From the NCBI RefSeq assembly GCF_000244875.1, contig NC_016791.1, positions 1,299,501 through 1,363,500 on the forward strand: a stretch of DNA of 64,000 bases, read 5' to 3'. Below are positions 6,567 through 33,674 of this stretch, one piece after another. Position numbers and translations under genes: made by a program. Numbering within the stretch: the stretch's first letter is position 1; every line of letters starts with the position of its first letter. The stretch is from Clostridium sp. BNL1100 (GTDB lineage Bacteria; Bacillota; Clostridia; Acetivibrionales; DSM-1351). The notes under the pieces are model-generated. The model had not been told where the DNA came from. It did not search any database and saw only the letters and a program-made list of their open reading frames with translations.

Positions 6567-8048
6567 ATGTTACAAAAAATCTCAGAAAAAACAGTAATGG
6601 TATTATCCTTAGTGTATCTGTTAATCACATCTGTTTGGAACTTTGTTTATTTAATACAAAATAAAGCGGCAGTCTATATTTTTCCTCTAGAGCTTTTTTG
6701 TATAGGTGTTTTTTTAGTTATATACAGATTAAAGGCAGACAAAAGAATTTTTGCAATATTATTGTTTATTATGGCTTTCTGCCTTAAAGGCTTTGTTGCG
6801 GTTCGTTATAATGCAATTCCACAATCGGATTTTAAATTAATTTATAATGCAGCAATAAAATTTGCTCAGGGTGATTTTTCTTTTTCAAATACAAAATATT
6901 TCAGTCTGTGGTCATATCAAACGGGGATTGTTCTATATTATGGGTTTCTTCTTAAACTTGGTTGTAATATTATAGGTCTTAAAATTTGCAACTGTTTGTT
7001 TATAGCGGGTGTTAATGTTCTGATATATTTGATTTCGGAAAAGCTTGTTGGCGATAAGTATACCAGATTCATTTCAGTAATTTACCTTTTTTACCCTGCT
7101 ACATTTTTCTTATGTTCTGTTTTAACAAACCAACATGTATCCAATTTCTTTATATTACTGGGAATTTACCTGTATGTTTTCAGAAAAACAAACACACTAG
7201 GGAATACTGTATTGGCAGCTGTAATGATTGCTATTGGAAATGCCTTTCGTCCCCAGGGAATTGTGGTAGTTGCTGCATTTGTTATTTGGGCGATGATAGA
7301 ATTATTAAACAAAAATACCGATAAAAAAATTAAGATAAAAACAGCTGCAGGGATTTTAGGTTTTGTGACTGTCTATATGCTTTTAGGAAAAGGTATGTCC
7401 ATGGCAACACAAATTTCAGGAGTGAATCAGAACGGAATGGACAACAACTTTCCATTATATAAAATAGTAGTGGGATTAAACCCTGATACTACGGGCTGTT
7501 ATTCTAACGAGGACGCCATAAAACTGATTTCAATTAAAGATAGTACAGCCAGAAATCAAGAGTCTTTGAAAATTATAAAAGAAAGGCTGTCAGATCGTGA
7601 AAAAATAAAGGATTTAATGATTCAAAAGCATAAAAAAATGTGGGTAAAAATGGATGATTCAATTGATTGGGGTTTCAAATACATAAATCAAAGCAGCATA
7701 TCATTGTTGGGAAAACATATTGTATATGAGAACTTTAAAATAAGAATTTTAAAACTGGAAAAGATTTTTTATTGTTTCATATTTTTTATGGCTGCAATAG
7801 GTGTTTTTGCAGAAATCAAAAAAAGTCATTATGCAAAAGGGTTTATTCCAATTTTATTAATAACCCTTGCCAATTTCGGAGTATATACCATTATAGAAAT
7901 TCAGTTCAGGTACCGGGATTTCCAAATGATTTTCATATTCATACTGGCGGCATCAGGAGTCCGGTATCTGGCTTTTCTTTTAAAGAATAGTTTAGAATTA
8001 TGGCACAATAGAATATACTTGACAACAGTTGATAAAACTATAAAATAA
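6567..8048 (+). CDS. Multi-pass membrane glycosyltransferase (GT39/PMT-like)
   Basis: A 493-residue protein with about ten hydrophobic segments. Early in the chain, between the first membrane segments, is an acidic SDF motif followed by WSYQTG, as in lipid-linked-sugar glycosyltransferases of the GT39/GT83 (ArnT/PMT) type. These move a sugar from a polyprenyl-phosphate donor on the outer face of the membrane. The donor and acceptor cannot be told. The start is the ATG at 6567 behind GAAAGG; the longer in-frame form from 6513 lacks a ribosome site. It is a single gene between two terminated units. The family call is from motif style only. Confidence 0.65.
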   Translation: MLQKISEKTVMVLSLVYLLITSVWNFVYLIQNKAAVYIFPLELFCIGVFLVIYRLKADKRIFAILLFIMAFCLKGFVAVRYNAIPQSDFKLIYNAAIKFAQGDFSFSNTKYFSLWSYQTGIVLYYGFLLKLGCNIIGLKICNCLFIAGVNVLIYLISEKLVGDKYTRFISVIYLFYPATFFLCSVLTNQHVSNFFILLGIYLYVFRKTNTLGNTVLAAVMIAIGNAFRPQGIVVVAAFVIWAMIELLNKNTDKKIKIKTAAGILGFVTVYMLLGKGMSMATQISGVNQNGMDNNFPLYKIVVGLNPDTTGCYSNEDAIKLISIKDSTARNQESLKIIKERLSDREKIKDLMIQKHKKMWVKMDDSIDWGFKYINQSSISLLGKHIVYENFKIRILKLEKIFYCFIFFMAAIGVFAEIKKSHYAKGFIPILLITLANFGVYTIIEIQFRYRDFQMIFIFILAASGVRYLAFLLKNSLELWHNRIYLTTVDKTIK

Positions 8049-8087
8049 GTATAGCAAAAAATATATATTTTGGAAGGAATACTGAAT

Positions 8088-8609
8088 ATGAACAAAAATC
8101 CTATTGTTACATTTGAATTGGAAAACGGGAATACTATGAAGGCCGAACTGTATCCTGAAATTGCTCCCAATACCGTTAATAACTTTATTTCTCTTATAAA
8201 TAAAGGCTTTTATAATGGCGTTATATTTCACAGAGTAATACCCGGCTTTATGATACAGGGAGGAGACCCGGAAGGAACAGGAACGGGCGGCCCTGATTAC
8301 AGCATTAAGGGAGAATTTTCATCAAACGGATTTAAAAATGACTTAAAGCATGACAAGGGAGTTCTTTCCATGGCAAGAACAATGGTACCCGATTCTGCCG
8401 GATCACAGTTCTTTATAATGGTTGAAAAAGCACCTCACCTTGACGGCCAATATGCTGCATTTGGTAAGGTAATAGAGGGAATTGAAGAAGCTGATAGAAT
8501 AGTAAGCGTAAAGACTGACTACAATGACAAGCCAAAAGAACCACAGGTAATGAAGATTGTTACTGTTGAAACTTTTGGCGTAGAGTACCCGGAACCTGAA
8601 AAAGTATAA
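8088..8609 (+). CDS. Peptidyl-prolyl cis-trans isomerase, cyclophilin type
   Basis: A single-domain cyclophilin of 173 residues without signal peptide, so cytoplasmic. The catalytic core is clear: FHRVIPGFMIQGGDP (active Arg in HRV), then MARTMVPDSAGSQFFI and FGKV. It speeds proline isomerisation during protein folding. The start is the ATG at 8088 with GGAAGGA ahead; a TTG at 8070 overlaps that site. A terminator shared with the convergent FAD protein follows. Confidence 0.95.
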   Translation: MNKNPIVTFELENGNTMKAELYPEIAPNTVNNFISLINKGFYNGVIFHRVIPGFMIQGGDPEGTGTGGPDYSIKGEFSSNGFKNDLKHDKGVLSMARTMVPDSAGSQFFIMVEKAPHLDGQYAAFGKVIEGIEEADRIVSVKTDYNDKPKEPQVMKIVTVETFGVEYPEPEKV

Positions 8610-8622
8610 ACTGTTAAATAAA

Positions 8623-8671
8623 AGAAAGCACCTTGTATCATGTCTTTATTGACTGACACAAAGTGCTTTTT
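8623..8671. terminator. Bidirectional terminator
   Basis: Inverted arms (GAAAGCACCTTGT and ACAAAGTGCTTTT, one mismatch) lie between the convergent cyclophilin and FAD oxidoreductase genes, with a T run on the plus side. Confidence 0.75.
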
Positions 8672-8680
8672 GTTTATATA

Positions 8681-10081
8681 TTAAGAATTACTGATTCTGT
8701 TTATAATTGTTCTAGCTGCCAGAACTCCGCTGGCACTGGCTTGTGAGAGACCTCTTGTTACACCGGCACCGTCGCCTATGGCAAACATATTTGGAAGCTT
8801 GGTTTCAAGTTCGTTAGTCAGCTGAAGCCTTGAACTGTAGAATTTAACCTCTACACCATAAAGCAGTGTATCATAATTTGCTGTACCCGGGGCAATCTTG
8901 TCAAGAGCATAAATCATCTCAATGATATTGTCCAGATGTCTCTTTGTTAATACAAGGCTTAAATCTCCCGGAGTTGCATTTAACGTCGGGTGAGTGAAGC
9001 TCTGACCCAGTCTGTGAGGGTTTGTTCTTGCACCCTTGATTAAATCCCCAAACCTTTGTACCAGTACTCCTCCTCCAAGCATATTTGAAAGAGAGGCAAT
9101 TCTCTTACCGTATTGGTAAGGCTCATTAAACGGCGATGTAAACCTGTTGCTAACCAGAAGTGCAAAGTTTGTATTTTCACTTCTCAGCTTTGGATCAGTA
9201 TAGCTATGGCCGTTAACTGTTACGATTCCGTCAACATTCTCAGAAACAACATGTCCGTATGGATTCATGCAGAAGGTACGCACTAGGTCACCGTATTGCT
9301 TTGTCCTGTAAACAAGCTTGGATTCGTATACGACATCGGTAATGTGTTCAAATACCTTGGCAGGCAGTTCAACTCTTACTCCGATATCAACCTGATTATT
9401 AATAAGGTCAAGCTTTAACCTTTTACATTGTTGTGAAAACCACTCAGCGCCGGATCTTCCGGGTGCTGCAATAAGATACTTACAGTTAATGGTTTGTCCG
9501 TCATGTAACTCTACAGCATAGCCGCCGTCCTTGCAGGGTTCGATGTTCAGAACCTGTGTATTGCACATAAGTTCCAGACGTTCCAGAAGATAATTGTACA
9601 GTCTTTTAAGTATTTCAAGGTTGTTTTCTGTACCAAGGTGCTTTACTGATGCCTGCAAAAGATGAAGGTCATTTTCCAATGCTCTCTTTTCAATAGCCTT
9701 CGCTTCATCAGTATATGTGGAGAACATTTCCTTTGTAGCTCCAAATTCAACATTAACATTGTCAACATAATTTATAAGATTCATAACTTCGTCATCAGGC
9801 AGATAATCATTAAGCCACCCGCCGAAAGCAGTTGTAAAGTTGAATTTACCGTCGGAATATGCTCCCGCACCACCGAAACCACGCATTATATCGCATGTTT
9901 TACAGCGGATACAGTCCTTTGTCCTATTAGCAACAATCGGGCAGGTTCTTTTAGTAATATCATGTCCCTGTTCAATCATTACTACCTTGAGTTGGGGATT
10001 TTGTTTTGTCAGTTCATAGCCGGCAAAGATACCGGATATACCACAACCGATTATTACAACGTCGTACATTGAATTGTTCAT
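8681..10081 (-). CDS. NAD(P)/FAD-dependent oxidoreductase (COG2509-like)
   Basis: A 466-residue flavoprotein. The N-terminal Rossmann motif VVIIGCGISGIFAGYEL binds FAD, and a C-terminal FAIGDGAGVTRGLSQA motif completes FAD binding. A Cys cluster near residues 55-75 (CPIV...CIRCKTC) is followed by RGFGGAGAYSDGKF, a pattern found in the COG2509 family of uncharacterised FAD dehydrogenases; it may hold a metal or Fe-S centre. The start chosen is the ATG at 10081 with GGAGGG six bases upstream; four residues on, MYDVV is an alternative. It is a single-gene unit and its substrate is unknown. Confidence 0.8.
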   Translation of the reverse strand: MNNSMYDVVIIGCGISGIFAGYELTKQNPQLKVVMIEQGHDITKRTCPIVANRTKDCIRCKTCDIMRGFGGAGAYSDGKFNFTTAFGGWLNDYLPDDEVMNLINYVDNVNVEFGATKEMFSTYTDEAKAIEKRALENDLHLLQASVKHLGTENNLEILKRLYNYLLERLELMCNTQVLNIEPCKDGGYAVELHDGQTINCKYLIAAPGRSGAEWFSQQCKRLKLDLINNQVDIGVRVELPAKVFEHITDVVYESKLVYRTKQYGDLVRTFCMNPYGHVVSENVDGIVTVNGHSYTDPKLRSENTNFALLVSNRFTSPFNEPYQYGKRIASLSNMLGGGVLVQRFGDLIKGARTNPHRLGQSFTHPTLNATPGDLSLVLTKRHLDNIIEMIYALDKIAPGTANYDTLLYGVEVKFYSSRLQLTNELETKLPNMFAIGDGAGVTRGLSQASASGVLAARTIINRISNS

Positions 10082-28350: not shown

Positions 28351-28385
28351 AAAAAAAGAGTTTCACAATTGTGAAACTCTTTTTT
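28351..28385. terminator. Bidirectional terminator beside the attachment site
   Basis: The near-perfect palindrome AAAAAGAGTTTCAC-AATT-GTGAAACTCTTTTT. On the minus strand it lies directly downstream of the tRNA 3'-end fragment, so it is probably the original terminator of that tRNA gene. Confidence 0.9.
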
Positions 28386-28402
28386 GGTGCGGATGAAGGG
28401 AC
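28385..28402 (-). other. tRNA 3'-end fragment: predicted left attachment site (attL) of prophage
   Basis: Read on the minus strand these 18 bases are GTCCCTTCATCCGCACCA: the end of a T-loop, the T-stem 3' strand CCCTT, the acceptor strand CATCCGC, discriminator A and CCA. The sequence further upstream on that strand does not complete a tRNA. A lone tRNA 3' end next to its terminator, with an integrase a few kilobases inward, is the standard product of phage integration into a tRNA gene. The complete gene, with acceptor 5' strand GCGGATG, should lie at the other end of the prophage. Confidence 0.75.
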
Positions 28403-28438: not shown

Positions 28439-28618
28439 TTATACCTGTTCTTTATAAAGATCTTTTAATACTTCCGTTATAATAGCGTACAAATGCTCTG
28501 GAAGGTTATTTTTATAGTTTAGGCAGAAATTTAATGTTATGTCTTTTGGCGTTTCAAGGAAATCTATACCGCTTTCTAGAAGTATCTCTTTAACTTGCTG
28601 ATATTTTTTGGAATCCAT
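28439..28618 (-). CDS. Small protein of unknown function
   Basis: A 59-residue open frame, ATG at 28618 preceded by GGAGG, beginning MDSKKYQQVKEILLESGIDF and ending EVLKDLYKEQV. It is mostly helical in appearance, soluble and unrecognised. It is the outermost gene of the prophage, just inside the attachment site. Confidence 0.65.
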   Translation of the reverse strand: MDSKKYQQVKEILLESGIDFLETPKDITLNFCLNYKNNLPEHLYAIITEVLKDLYKEQV

Positions 28619-28899: not shown

Positions 28900-28990
28900 A
28901 AACTATTGGTTTGGTTTTGTAAAGAGTAAAAAACTAATAGTTTGTTTTGTAAAAAAATGGATTGACTATTAGAAACTTACAGTTTATAAT
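28900..28990 (+). promoter_or_regulatory. Promoter with three phased palindromic operators upstream of the XRE gene
   Basis: TTGACT (28962-28967), 17 bases, TATAAT (28985-28990). Three copies of a CTA-W-TRG core lie at 28903-28909 (CTATTGG), 28934-28940 (CTAATAG, inside the perfect AAACTAATAGTTT) and 28966-28972 (CTATTAG, inside the promoter). The spacings of 31 and 32 bases are three helical turns, so the copies sit on one DNA face. The likely binder is the XRE protein encoded just downstream. Confidence 0.65.
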
Positions 28991-29013
28991 ATTTATTGGA
29001 AGGAGGTAATATT

Positions 29014-29550
29014 ATGTTCTCAGAAAATCTACGTAAGCTACGAGAATTTAAAAAAATGGATAGAACACAACTTGCAAAAGAACTTGATATTTCTGCACAG
29101 GCTGTAGGTCAATTTGAACTTGGTAAACGAGATCCTTCCCTGGATACACTAAAAAAGATTTCGTCTTTTTTTGGTGTAACAATAGATACTCTAATATCCG
29201 ATGATGATGAAAAAGTTAATATTACAAAGATTAAAGACTTAATTAAAAAGTTAAATTACACTATTAAAGAATTTGCTCAGGATATTTGTGAACCTGTTAA
29301 TGAAATAGAGAAAATTGTAGTATATGACACAGAACCATCCCCCCAAATACTTAATTCAATATGTCTAAAATATGGTCTACCTATGTCTTTTTTTGAAGAG
29401 CGTAAGGATTCTGAGTATGTTAATTTTTGCAAGAACCAGGAGAATAAAAAGTATATAAACCTTGCTATGTTTGTTAAATCAAATGGATATGACCCGGATA
29501 ATGTATTGGCCTTATTAAAAATTACTGAGTTAATAAAATCAAAAGAATAA
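29014..29550 (+). CDS. XRE-family transcriptional regulator of the Agr-like module
   Basis: A 178-residue DNA-binding protein with a typical XRE helix-turn-helix at about residues 3-58 (LRKLREFKKMDRTQLAKELDISAQAVGQFELGKRDPSLDTLKKI). The following 115-residue C-terminal region has no recognised fold; it may sense or dimerise. The start is the ATG at 29014 behind AAGGAGG. The next gene starts 16 bases after its stop, so they form one operon with the peptide gene. The phased palindromes ahead suggest self-control. Confidence 0.85.
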   Translation: MFSENLRKLREFKKMDRTQLAKELDISAQAVGQFELGKRDPSLDTLKKISSFFGVTIDTLISDDDEKVNITKIKDLIKKLNYTIKEFAQDICEPVNEIEKIVVYDTEPSPQILNSICLKYGLPMSFFEERKDSEYVNFCKNQENKKYINLAMFVKSNGYDPDNVLALLKITELIKSKE

Positions 29551-29566
29551 ATAAGAGGTGAGAATA

Positions 29567-30355
29567 TTGGATCAAATGTCTATTGCTAAATTGTTACTAG
29601 TTACATTACCAGAAAATTTATTTAGCATATATGTGGCATTTCTTTTAACTGGAGACAGACTTAATCTGCCTTTTAGAGATAATATTAAAAATAGAAAACA
29701 AAATATTATAAAACTTTTAGTAGTTGTATCTATGTTTTCCACTATTCAATTTGTTGGAAGACGGTTTATTCACGACATAGCAACCTATTTTATATTAAGT
29801 ATTTTTTTATCTACGGCTATATTGAAAATAATCTACAGAACATCTCGTTTTTATAATCGAGAGAAAGATTTTATTTATAATATTGTTAGTGTAATAAATT
29901 CGTTTAAAAAACCATTTTTACAAGTATTTATTATGTTTGGATTTTTGTACTCCATAGAGGCAATTTATATACCTCCAATAATGCAAACACTAAAAGTCCA
30001 ATCTATCAAAGAATTATTCACAATCCAATGGGTTAATATACTATTTCCTCAATTTGATAGGTTTTTACAATTGTTAGTAATTACTGTACTTTGGAATTCC
30101 CAAAGGTTAAACAAAAACATTTCACAATATAGTTGTAAAAAATCATTTTCCATATTACCAATAATTTATATAATTGTAGCTGAATTTATTATTATATATT
30201 TGTACGTTTGCAGTTTTAATAATTTAAACATACAAGTGAAGATTATAATTTTCATTTTCATTACAAGTATGGCTCCTTTTAATTTGTTTTTATATAAAAT
30301 AGTTCTTAATGTGATAGACAGAATACATTTAAATTACGTGAAGAAAGGGGAATAA
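29567..30355 (+). CDS. Multi-pass membrane protein resembling the AgrC sensor domain without kinase
   Basis: About 262 residues, with six to seven hydrophobic segments covering nearly the whole chain. The N-terminus (SIAKLLLVTLPENLFSIYVAFLLTG) resembles the start of clostridial AgrC-type peptide receptors. After the last helix the protein ends within about 15 residues (IDRIHLNYVKKGE), so no dimerisation or ATPase domain is present. The start is probably TTG at 29567, six bases after AGAGGTG. It lies between an XRE regulator and an AgrD-like peptide, so I infer a peptide receptor; a transporter or immunity role is also possible. Confidence 0.6.
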   Translation: MDQMSIAKLLLVTLPENLFSIYVAFLLTGDRLNLPFRDNIKNRKQNIIKLLVVVSMFSTIQFVGRRFIHDIATYFILSIFLSTAILKIIYRTSRFYNREKDFIYNIVSVINSFKKPFLQVFIMFGFLYSIEAIYIPPIMQTLKVQSIKELFTIQWVNILFPQFDRFLQLLVITVLWNSQRLNKNISQYSCKKSFSILPIIYIIVAEFIIIYLYVCSFNNLNIQVKIIIFIFITSMAPFNLFLYKIVLNVIDRIHLNYVKKGE

Positions 30356-30357
30356 AA

Positions 30358-30486
30358 ATGAAAAGGGTTCTTTACAAAATTTGTATACCACTAAGTTTGA
30401 TAGTAGGTATAATAGCATTTGTAATGGCACAGGGTTCATTTGCCTGGTGGAAACAACCCAGGATTCCAAAAACGTTAAAACAATAA
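30358..30486 (+). CDS. AgrD-like cyclic autoinducer peptide precursor
   Basis: A 42-residue peptide with a basic amphipathic N-terminal helix (MKRVLYKICIPLSLIVGIIAF) and a C-terminal block GSFAWWKQPRIPKTLKQ. Clostridial AgrD peptides typically end ...CxWWxxQPxxPKxL. Here Ser27 takes the place of the ring Cys, so the mature signal would be a true lactone, plausibly Ser27-Phe-Ala-Trp-Trp. The gene begins two bases after the membrane protein stop, with GGGG as ribosome site, and ends in a terminator. It is too short for routine gene calling. Confidence 0.75.
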   Translation: MKRVLYKICIPLSLIVGIIAFVMAQGSFAWWKQPRIPKTLKQ

Positions 30487-30519
30487 AAAAAGGAGCTGCC
30501 TTATGCAGTTCCTTTTTTT
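30484..30519. terminator. Bidirectional terminator between the two halves of the Agr-like module
   Basis: AAAAAAAGGAGCTGC-CTTAT-GCAGTTCCTTTTTTT: a strong stem with T runs in both directions, shared by the convergent agrD-like and DUF5317 transcripts. Confidence 0.92.
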
Positions 30520-31043
30520 ATTGTTTTAAATGAAAAGTAAAGTACAATGAACACAAATGCTCTCACTAAAATATCTCCTAAGCTCATAACACAATATCCC
30601 GTATCAAAAATATCAGACAAGAATTTAACATGTGTTTTGTTATTCCCTAGAACGTGCCAGCCATCCACACTATTAAGCGTATCTAAACTGATATAACCGG
30701 TTTTAAGGGATAGTGAGGGGAATACTGGCATTTTCCCATTATTAAAATACTTTACAAATTCATTCAACACCATCCCCAAGAACATTAATCCCATTCCCAA
30801 AAAGCCTTGCTTATATATTTTAAATCTATAAATAAGAAAGAATATGCAAATTGAATAAACAAGCTTATAAACATTTGTATAAGTTAATAAGAAATATTCT
30901 CCTTTAAACATTCCAATCTGTAAAAAAATATATATTAAAGAACATAAAAAAACAGGGTAAAATTCCCATTTCTTAAAGATTTTTTTAATACTCATGCCTT
31001 TTATTTTAGCAACAAATAAAGCGAGCAATACAGTTTCAATCAT
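30501..31043 (-). CDS. DUF5317-like membrane protein
   Basis: A 180-residue protein with about five hydrophobic segments. The segment MPVFPSLSLKTGYISLDTLNSVDGWHVLG, then THVKFLSDIFD and SLGDILVRA, fits the DUF5317 family of clostridial membrane proteins of unknown role. Its ATG overlaps the AgrB stop by four bases (ATGA), so the two are translationally coupled and probably act together. Its last codons form one arm of the terminator. Confidence 0.7.
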   Translation of the reverse strand: MIETVLLALFVAKIKGMSIKKIFKKWEFYPVFLCSLIYIFLQIGMFKGEYFLLTYTNVYKLVYSICIFFLIYRFKIYKQGFLGMGLMFLGMVLNEFVKYFNNGKMPVFPSLSLKTGYISLDTLNSVDGWHVLGNNKTHVKFLSDIFDTGYCVMSLGDILVRAFVFIVLYFSFKTIKKGTA

Positions 31044-31651
31044 TTGTTTCCTCCGCCAATAGAATTTATTTTTTTATAAAATGAATCTCCTATAGGAGTA
31101 ATAGAGCTTATTTCTAGAAGAATACCTGTATATATTGATAATACTGATTCGATATGTAATTTAATAGAAAACCCAAACCAAAACAACAATATAATCAAAG
31201 AAAAAATTTTAAGAGTCTTTTTTCTTTTTAAAGTCAATTGATTTAAAGGACTATTCTGAGGAGCATAGCAGAAAATAGAAATTGCAGATATAGTAAAGAT
31301 AAATATTCCAATGGCATATCCAGATTGTCCATATACTAAATAACTAAAGTACCTGCATAATATTGATAAAGGTAAAAAGGTTAATATTGTAATTAAAAAG
31401 CATTTAAAGTATGTGCCCATATGTGTACCACCTGCAGTAAATCTAAGTGTTGTGAAAGATAAAATAATAAAAACAACAGATTGAAGAGTATCAAATAATA
31501 AAGCAAATATTAATAGTAAAAACACTTTTAGGATACTTTGAAAGATCATTTGAAAACCGAAATAGTATTCAGTTCTTTTCTGATGGTTCTCTTGCAAATG
31601 GCTCACTAGAAAATTAGCACTACTAAATGACATTTTCTGGACTATTTTCAT
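31040..31651 (-). CDS. agrB: AgrB-type peptide-processing membrane endopeptidase
   Basis: A 203-residue polytopic membrane protein. The AgrB catalytic motif is complete: RFTAGGTHMGTYFKC, with His77 and Cys84. CYAPQNSPLNQLTLKRKKTLK is the second conserved block. AgrB cleaves the AgrD C-terminus, closes the (thio)lactone ring and helps export it. The start is the ATG at 31651 behind GGAGCG; the longer in-frame version lacks a ribosome site. A TATAAT element on the minus strand lies at 31690-31685, next to an AATTGCA/TGCAATT inverted repeat. Confidence 0.9.
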   Translation of the reverse strand: MKIVQKMSFSSANFLVSHLQENHQKRTEYYFGFQMIFQSILKVFLLLIFALLFDTLQSVVFIILSFTTLRFTAGGTHMGTYFKCFLITILTFLPLSILCRYFSYLVYGQSGYAIGIFIFTISAISIFCYAPQNSPLNQLTLKRKKTLKIFSLIILLFWFGFSIKLHIESVLSIYTGILLEISSITPIGDSFYKKINSIGGGNK

Positions 31652-31733
31652 AATTTCACGCTCCATAATTGCACTAATAATGCAATTATATAGCAAAATC
31701 ATTACCATTTAAATATTTATAATAACTAAAACC

Positions 31734-32726
31734 TTAAGAAACATATTTTTTATGGCTCATTTGAATTTCTTCAATATTTAGATCGGCATAAATTTGAGTG
31801 GTTGCGGGCGTGTTATTTCCAAGTATTCTCTGAACGGATTGGATACTTGCACCGTTGTTTACCGCAGTTGTAGCTGTAGTGTGTCGTAATAAATGAGGAT
31901 GAACAGATTTGATTATTCCGACTCGTTTTCCTAATTCATTGAATATCTTTTGATAACCTCTATGTCCTAACCGGTTAAATGGTTGCCTAGAGATAACAAA
32001 AAGAGCGTCGTTTTTATCTTTGCGTGACTCCAAATACTTCCAGAGGTGGACCTTTGCTTTAGCATTTAGAAATACTGTTCTCTCTTTATTACCCTTACCA
32101 ATAACATTAACGGTCTCATTATTCCAGTTAATATCATTTTTATTTAATTTATAAACCTCGTCAAGACGACAACCTGTACTATAAAAAAATTCTATTAAGG
32201 CTTTTTCTCTTTGTGTCCTACATGCCAACCTTAACATTTCTAATTCCTCCGGAGATAATGATTTCCTGATCCGCTTTTCCTTTTTTGTCGGTTTGATTTT
32301 TCTCATTGGATTCTTTAAAATATAGTCCTCTGTTTCAAGCCAACTAAAATAACTTCTTAGAATACTTATTTCTGTATTCAAAGTAGTATTTTTTATACCC
32401 GTAGAAGAATACTGTGCAAGATAGCGCCTTATATCCATCGTATCAATATCCTCAATTCTTTTTTGAATTGTTTTGGAGAATCTTAAGAGATGGTGGGAAT
32501 AACTTTTAAGAGTAGTATTTGATAACCCTTCCAACTTTTTTGCTGTAATAAAAAGAACTACTTTTTCAGAAATACCCTCGTAAGATACAATAGATTTTTC
32601 AATCTGATGTAGTTCATAATTGTACAATTCTTCTTCTATTATATTTTTTAGTTTAATTGACTCATCATGGGAAAGAAACACAATTGCCTTACTCAAAATA
32701 CGGATAATTACATCTTCTTTTAACAT
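31734..32726 (-). CDS. int: Phage tyrosine-recombinase integrase
   Basis: A 330-residue XerC/D-type recombinase that would integrate and excise the prophage at the tRNA site. A SAM-like core-binding domain (about 45-135) precedes the catalytic domain with Arg187 (TGCRLDEV), Lys211 (GKGNKER), His278 and Arg281 (HLLRHTTA) and nucleophile Tyr313 (TQIYADL). The fifth residue, usually His or Trp in LGH, is Asn304 (LGNN), a modest departure. AAAGGGG precedes the ATG. It lies 3.3 kb inside attL and is transcribed toward it. Confidence 0.93.
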   Translation of the reverse strand: MLKEDVIIRILSKAIVFLSHDESIKLKNIIEEELYNYELHQIEKSIVSYEGISEKVVLFITAKKLEGLSNTTLKSYSHHLLRFSKTIQKRIEDIDTMDIRRYLAQYSSTGIKNTTLNTEISILRSYFSWLETEDYILKNPMRKIKPTKKEKRIRKSLSPEELEMLRLACRTQREKALIEFFYSTGCRLDEVYKLNKNDINWNNETVNVIGKGNKERTVFLNAKAKVHLWKYLESRKDKNDALFVISRQPFNRLGHRGYQKIFNELGKRVGIIKSVHPHLLRHTTATTAVNNGASIQSVQRILGNNTPATTQIYADLNIEEIQMSHKKYVS

Positions 32727-32921: not shown

Positions 32922-33212
32922 TTACTTACTTTTTTTCATTTTACGAAATGTATCAAGAAAAGCTTTTACAGCGGTTTTTTCATCTTCTGTTAATTCTTCA
33001 TCGTAAACAATCTTGCTTTGGTCAGAACGCCCCAGTAAGTAATCTGTTGTTACATTAAAATAATCAGCTACTCTCTTTAATTTGTCTGATGTAGGAGAAA
33101 CTTTATCCCAATTTCTTATTACACCTTTTCCAAATCCAAGTATACGTTCAAGCTCAGTAGGAGTAATATCTTTTGATATGCATAAGTCTTTTATTTTATC
33201 TACGGTCGACAT
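32922..33212 (-). CDS. CI-like phage repressor (XRE)
   Basis: A 96-residue protein that is nearly all helix-turn-helix: TPTELERILGFGKGVIRNWDKVSPTSDKLKRVADYFNVTTDYLLGR. It lacks the C-terminal LexA-type peptidase domain of larger CI proteins, so it is not expected to be cleaved by RecA. The ribosome site GAGGTGAATAT precedes the ATG. It faces the early operon across a control region with two promoters, the usual lysogeny switch layout. Confidence 0.85.
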   Translation of the reverse strand: MSTVDKIKDLCISKDITPTELERILGFGKGVIRNWDKVSPTSDKLKRVADYFNVTTDYLLGRSDQSKIVYDEELTEDEKTAVKAFLDTFRKMKKSK

Positions 33213-33258
33213 ATATTCACCTCGTTAAGTACTGGCAGAATAAAATCGTATATTCGAG

Positions 33259-33402
33259 TTGACAATACGAAAATAATCGTCTATAATAAAATCAAGCTAA
33301 ATTGAACAGCAAAAACACACAGCATATTTACTTGTAGATATAGTTTCCGGCAAGTTTTATTTTTTATGCTTTGTTGTACGAAAATAATCTGCTACAAATA
33401 AT
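33259..33402 (+). promoter_or_regulatory. Lysogeny control region: two promoters sharing a 13-base operator-like repeat
   Basis: Promoter 1: TTGACA (33259-33264), 17 bases, TATAAT (33282-33287). Promoter 2: TTGTAC (33374-33379), 17 bases, AATAAT (33397-33402), weaker. Both carry the identical 13-mer TACGAAAATAATC (33266-33278 and 33377-33389) in the spacer, where a repressor would block polymerase. The CI-like protein upstream is the natural candidate binder. A related CGTATATTCG lies at 33247-33256. Confidence 0.65.
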
Positions 33403-33479
33403 AATAATACGTTTTTAACCGTCTGTCAATAAAATTAGCAAATTTTAAGCACATTTTCATGAAAGGAGGTTTCTACACA

Positions 33480-33674
33480 ATGACTGTTTTTGAAAAAGAA
33501 GTACGAAAGGCACTTATAGATAAAGATATGACAGTGAACAAGTTGGCGGAAGAGATGGGGATATCATCATGTTACCTGATAGATATTCTAAAAGGTAATA
33601 GAACAGGTAAAAAACAAAAAACAAAAATACTTGCTTTGCTTGGATTAGATGAATCTATTTGTACAGAAAGATAG
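33480..33674 (+). CDS. Cro-like small helix-turn-helix protein
   Basis: A 64-residue protein, VFEKEVRKALIDKDMTVNKLAEEMGISSCYLIDILKGNRTGKKQK, essentially one XRE helix-turn-helix. The start is the ATG at 33480 behind AAAGGAGG. As the first gene of the rightward operon after the control region, it most likely plays the Cro/early-regulator role. Its tail overlaps the upstream part of the next frame but not its chosen start. Confidence 0.75.
   Translation: MTVFEKEVRKALIDKDMTVNKLAEEMGISSCYLIDILKGNRTGKKQKTKILALLGLDESICTER

Follow-up and report, generated by a model that had tools for sequence, protein, structure and literature searches.

We analyzed a stretch of 64,000 nucleotides from Clostridium sp. 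BNL1100 (NC_016791.1, positions 1,299,501 to 1,363,500, here referred to as the window). It carries, at positions 28985-31709 and inside a 42-kb prophage of this cellulose-degrading clostridium, a module of five genes encoding an XRE regulator, a membrane receptor, an AgrD-type propeptide of 42 amino acids, a DUF5317 protein and AgrB. All five had been proposed in a first-pass annotation made from the sequence without database searches, and the open reading frames (ORFs) together with profile matches confirmed them. We consider it likely that the module is a prophage-borne quorum-sensing system of the agr type, in which the receptor works without a kinase and an XRE protein provides the output by protein contact.

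The rightward operon is preceded by a promoter-like site (TTGACT-17-TATAAT, 28962..28990, + strand) agreeing with the consensus at 11 of 12 positions. Its first gene encodes the XRE regulator of 178 amino acids (29014..29550, +), whose start codon ATG at 29014 is preceded by GGAAGGAGGT. This protein matched HTH_3 (1.4e-21) and contains two HTH stretches, the second belonging to an HTH-like domain, followed by a C-terminal helical hairpin common to the family. The kinase-less AgrC-type membrane receptor of 262 amino acids comes next (29567..30355, +, start TTG at 29567), and then the AgrD-type propeptide (30358..30486, +) with the sequence MKRVLYKICIPLSLIVGIIAFVMAQGSFAWWKQPRIPKTLKQ. The predicted ring of the peptide is Ser27-Phe-Ala-Trp-Trp31, where Ser27 stands six residues ahead of the QP of the tail; the AgrD models of NCBIfam and Pfam gave no match to the 42-mer. 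A two-way hairpin resembling an intrinsic terminator (30478..30525; -27.3 kcal/mol, z -9.7) lies between the convergent transcripts.

On the opposite strand the DUF5317 membrane protein (30501..31043, -; PF17248, 3.9e-22) overlaps by 4 bases with the AgrB peptidase/cyclase of 203 amino acids (31040..31651, -; PF04647, 4.6e-31). The ORF of AgrB is open to 31708, and when numbered from the start MKIVQ (31651) its catalytic pair falls exactly on His77/Cys84, as had been claimed, in the stretch GTHMGTYFKC. A candidate promoter is located upstream of agrB at 31713-31685, and both genes lie downstream of the integrase gene int on the same strand. DUF5317 is possibly an accessory of peptide export or processing. 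It also adjoins agrB in another genome (G003, L012:7239-7781).

The membrane receptor could not be assigned to any family in Pfam, NCBIfam or PHROGs. According to hydropathy only, it is a multi-helix protein with about 16 residues beyond its last helix. A profile of 61 receptors aligned over 269 columns with a GHKL kinase of 455 amino acids (L107; E 6.5e-13), and likewise matched the AgrC of the host that is encoded beside agrB (L020; E 1.3e-14). The alignment with L107 spans the sensor and enters the SPOB_a phospho-acceptor (DHp) helix, where RHDFYNHL of the kinase stands opposite a histidine-free, EDDVRFAL-like sequence in the receptors. Many chromosomal receptors end there, and those of the window and of three related loci (L068, L069 and L071) stop 15-20 residues past the last helix, without even a tail of the chromosomal type. 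A Pfam scan of the 61 receptors detected no residual SPOB_a on its own; the helix was seen only via the profile alignment. Within the prophage (C1:1327884-1369943) there was no match to the GHKL kinase (PF14501) or the LytTR regulator (PF04397) and no AgrC/AgrA pair, in line with the earlier statement that a histidine kinase is absent. To judge by this homology, the receptor corresponds to an AgrC devoid of its kinase, the phospho-acceptor helix being histidine-free in the host copies and deleted in the phage copy. The proposal that it represents the sensor half of AgrC was thereby supported. A role as a transporter was considered and rejected, as no transporter family matched and the protein is homologous to AgrC.

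The module thus shares with staphylococcal-type agr the AgrB peptidase with His77/Cys84, an AgrD-type propeptide with a Cys/Ser ring and a PxxP-type tail, and a receptor with homology to the sensor domain of AgrC. Unlike those systems it contains neither the AgrC kinase domain (DHp plus GHKL ATPase, HATPase) nor the AgrA LytTR regulator, and an XRE protein occupies the output position.

The distribution of such receptors was analyzed in 58 genomes of the order. When the window receptor alone was used as query, relatives were detected in six further genomes. A profile built from seven receptors matched 69 places in 39 of the 58 genomes, most of them open frames of 240-330 amino acids, while some matches of 456 amino acids carry GHKL kinases. 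The neighbours of 62 receptor loci were examined, and no GHKL kinase gene was found in them. An AgrD-like gene on the same strand lay directly downstream of 57 receptors. These linked peptides share the AgrD motif [CS]x4[YHK]QP[KR]xPKx[LM]. At the ring position six residues before QP, Cys (35) or Ser (22) was present in all 57, compared with a background of 12.6% and in a search that did not require either residue. Furthermore, an XRE gene was located within 1.5 kb in 48 of the 62 loci (23 upstream and codirectional, 22 downstream and convergent, 3 in another arrangement). The density of XRE genes was 0.31 per kb near receptors versus 0.021 per kb elsewhere in the same loci, a 13-fold difference. 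With a model built from non-module XREs only, the densities were 0.310 versus 0.023 per kb and 47 receptors had an XRE gene nearby. AgrB was encoded somewhere in 51 of the 58 genomes and within 4 kb of 15 of the 62 receptors. Two genomes (G022 and G052) had kinase-less receptors and no AgrB match, so that any peptide there would depend on another processing enzyme, unless the assembly lacks agrB.

Receptor and XRE distances were correlated with a coefficient of 0.585 (Mantel), the largest value in 1000 permutations being 0.165. In 45 of 47 cases the arrangement of the XRE gene was shared with the closest receptor from a different genome. In genomes holding several modules, it was the receptor's own XRE and not that of the sibling module that resembled the XRE of the nearest foreign receptor (40 of 44 tests); relatedness of the species inflates the value of 0.585, not this within-genome test. 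Linkage and co-inheritance, including the within-genome tests, make a good comparative case for a joint action of receptor and XRE.

The element in the window is a prophage, as had been proposed, since it is bounded by an attachment-site (att) repeat at a tRNA-Leu gene and the site is empty in two relatives. The left repeat of 19 bp (28384..28402; TTGGTGCGGATGAAGGGAC) copies the 3' end of tRNA-Leu, and the identical 19-mer forms the 3' end of the intact tRNA-Leu, which lies 42 kb farther right (L021), at about 70425-70443 in window coordinates. The prophage accordingly extends from 28384 to about 70443. Both prophage flanks are adjacent in the genomes G005 and G006, with an overlap of 19 and 22 bases, respectively. 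Between the repeats lie genes for a terminase, a major head protein, a replication initiator and an integrase, so that the att bounds, integrase and structural genes of a temperate phage are all in place. The module is situated between attL and int, the latter encoding a tyrosine integrase (31734..32726, -) upstream of agrB on the same strand. The phage also has its own divergent repressor/Cro-like pair (32922-33212, -, and 33459-33674, +) with divergent promoter-like sites at 33259 (+, 12/12) and 33429 (-, 11/12); integrase and pair were both identified by library profile matches. At the end far from the tyrosine integrase, a gene for a large serine recombinase of 490 amino acids (L021:4975-6447) overlaps the right att site with its 3' end. 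A frame of 59 amino acids between attL and the XRE promoter (28439-28618, -) matched no family.

At 3.497 Mb (L018) the host chromosome itself encodes AgrB, an AgrD-like peptide and a receptor lacking the kinase, next to two XRE genes in convergent orientation. The two XRE paralogues stand side by side (7669-8061 and 8297-8710), and the same pair was found in G005 (L053). Since such a copy is present in the host, the phage did not invent the kinase-less design. In addition, the host has two classical agrB loci with a GHKL AgrC (L019 and L020). The first-pass annotation had described a kinase-less circuit from AgrB and AgrD to XRE as phage-borne. The circuit gains strong comparative support from the AgrC homology, the linkage with AgrD and XRE and the co-inheritance of receptor and XRE; its restriction to phages does not hold, as on this distribution it is widespread in the order. 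In the tree the window copy grouped with L012 of G003 (100/100), and the prophage group of L068, L069 and L071 was separate (100/100), which suggests one or two captures of the module by mobile elements. The five-gene cluster of L012 lies beside another divergent XRE/HTH pair, on a contig too short to call a prophage. Searches of IMG/VR and INPHARED yielded no phage record other than one IMG/VR contig matching the copy of Ruminiclostridium hungatei (G004); of two scans of the genome contigs the first gave no match and the second R. hungatei only. In this species there is also a short remnant of a receptor gene, interrupted by three stop codons (L011/L017, G004:C27:67686-67901), its intact module being located elsewhere (L069).

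Two sibling prophages place the module at a different position. In G009, AgrB (+) comes first after the att site, followed by peptide, receptor and XRE (-). Genes for Cro-like, excisionase-like and anti-repressor proteins stand divergent from the module XRE, and the integrase is found at the other end. At a tRNA-like att site this prophage of 62,771 bp is repeated in tandem, the two copies being identical (L071/L072, G009:C1:1922187-2047700), which represents a tandem double lysogen unless the assembly is at fault. In G006 (L068) the same module order lies beside a serine integrase and Cro-like and DnaD-like replication genes, followed by terminase and tail sheath genes. The module XRE was the only full-length XRE found in each of these prophages, in a scan for XRE proteins only that would miss repressors of other folds. 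In both it occupies the position of CI, and it is probably their lysogeny repressor.

The gene identities, the prophage location, the loss of the kinase, and the linkage and joint inheritance of receptor, peptide and XRE gene can be read from the sequence. They are compatible with a scheme in which AgrB, as known for the AgrB/AgrD family, would cleave the 42-mer and close it into a small lactone (Ser27-Trp31) that is exported. The receptor, a former AgrC minus its catalytic half, would bind this lactone. Binding would then alter its hold on, or release of, the XRE whose gene directly precedes that of the receptor in the operon. Promoter occupancy would change as a consequence, protein contact taking the place of phosphotransfer. 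The structure of the peptide, its binding to the receptor, the receptor-XRE contact, the direction of the response and the target promoters are what we infer here. In the window phage the XRE is presumably an extra regulator because the phage has its own divergent cI/cro pair with near-perfect promoters; its targets would most likely be the operon to which it belongs and perhaps genes of the host.

Several observations speak against this scheme or against an extension of it to lysogeny. An XRE gene within 1.5 kb was missing for 14 of the 62 receptors and agrB was near only 15, hence parts of the module can act apart. Chromosomal receptors at least have a short cytoplasmic tail, which is missing from the phage receptor; this bears on the contact surface for the XRE, and the AlphaFold model of the receptor, made from an alignment of two rows, reached a pLDDT of only 45 and lends no structural support. 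In G006 an IS3-type transposase gene (L068:6779-7591) parts the XRE from the receptor and splits the operon, and the window phage has the separate cI/cro pair. Finally, three AAACT-N3-AGTTT-like inverted repeats upstream of the XRE gene (28900-28912, 28931-28943 and 28973-28985) are weak candidates for XRE operators. As such they did not withstand a shuffle test (P 0.17), the upstream regions of other XRE genes had no excess of them, and the genome-wide count of the pattern equalled the control count, with one match inside the 16S-23S spacer. They are not significant and are kept as a weak hint, suggestive only.

A different explanation would pair the receptor with a GHKL kinase of the host as a heterodimer or decoy, allowing the phage to listen in on the agr signalling of the host or to dampen it, the XRE being a co-transcribed repressor of the operon only. 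Suitable partners exist, as the host has the two agrB loci beside GHKL AgrC and some twenty GHKL matches, and the receptor profile matches the AgrC of L020. However, the DHp helix, usually the part for dimerisation, is missing from the phage receptor, each module has its own peptide, and the linkage and co-inheritance of the XRE would be left unexplained. We therefore regard this explanation as unlikely. Accessory genes typically sit where this cassette does, between attL and int, and kinase-less membrane proteins beside small peptides are known from bacteriocin cassettes as well. Such a setting would suit a peptide made by AgrB as an antimicrobial or interference agent, with the membrane protein as immunity and the XRE as repressor of the cassette, serving as a weapon in superinfection or against competitors. 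Given the homology of the membrane protein to AgrC sensors, the closely AgrD-like ring and tail of the peptide and the CI position of the module in two prophages, this appears improbable.

Least probable in our view is a functionless relic of a once complete agr system that decayed on the phage. Truncation of the receptor, the three stop codons in the relative of G004 (L011) and the insertion element in the module of G006 would fit decay, but none of the five module frames is interrupted, dozens of intact loci with a co-inherited XRE have a receptor truncated in the same way, and the module is present in the intact identical tandem prophages. A signalling module with a kinase-less receptor and XRE output remains the reading that we prefer.

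A role in lysogeny had been suggested for the window phage. There it is not supported, the phage having its own repressor pair at 32922-33674, and it fits the two sibling prophages with the XRE in the CI position; the link is thus one of gene position, in the siblings only. Tentatively, and at somewhat less than an even chance, we propose that agr-type cyclic peptides act through a kinase-less receptor that directly controls a CI-class XRE and so decides between lysis and lysogeny, as a second, independent form of peptide communication among phages. The same tentative proposal includes that this role is clearest in the prophages of G009 and G006 and an added layer in the window phage.

Known systems share features with the module. 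In LytTR systems of the HdrRM/BrsRM type a membrane protein is paired with a DNA-binding regulator and there is no kinase; they differ by the LytTR regulator, another membrane protein family and the lack of an AgrBD peptide. The XRE family resembles the solved structures of ICEBs1 ImmR, CylR2 and SinR, which are repressors governed by protein partners or peptides. The match to CylR2 had an E-value of 6.5e-11 and covered the HTH region only.

The nearest precedents are CylR1/CylR2 and the agr genes of phage phiCDHM1. In the cytolysin operon of Enterococcus faecalis, the membrane protein CylR1 and the small XRE repressor CylR2 respond to a secreted peptide without a phosphorelay, by a mechanism that is still open (PMC3709268). 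The module XRE is a relative of CylR2, and its pairing with a membrane protein would work alike. Unlike the receptor, CylR1 has three predicted helices; its signal is a lantibiotic subunit and not a product of AgrB, and the system is not on a phage. The agr3 genes of the Clostridium difficile phage phiCDHM1 are likewise located on a temperate clostridial phage without a response regulator. There AgrC is an HATPase_c protein without an identified receptor domain, the converse of the present case, and the accessible part of that report describes no link to an XRE (PMC3901668). Arbitrium (AimR/AimP/AimX) of the SPbeta-group phages also ties phage peptide signalling to lysogeny, which here applies by position only and in the sibling prophages (PMC6458997). 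In contrast to the predicted cyclic peptide, AgrB and membrane receptor of the module, AimP is linear and imported and has a cytoplasmic receptor (PMC6458997). No match to AimR was obtained among the module proteins in NCBIfam. In searches of the open-access literature we came across no kinase-less AgrC paired with an XRE, which is no proof of novelty, and the accessible parts of two 2025 reviews on phages and quorum sensing do not mention a kinase-less agr. The prophage branch stands a fair chance of being a second peptide-based lysogeny system.

The agr system is taught as a path from peptide to kinase to response regulator, and a kinase-less XRE branch would add a second output route. It would also supply CylR1/CylR2 with many analogues for study. 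If the XRE of the sibling prophages is the lysogeny repressor, the modules of G009 and G006 would be agr-type lysis-lysogeny switches, and with modules in the CI slot phage-to-phage signalling by extracellular cyclic peptides would become directly testable.

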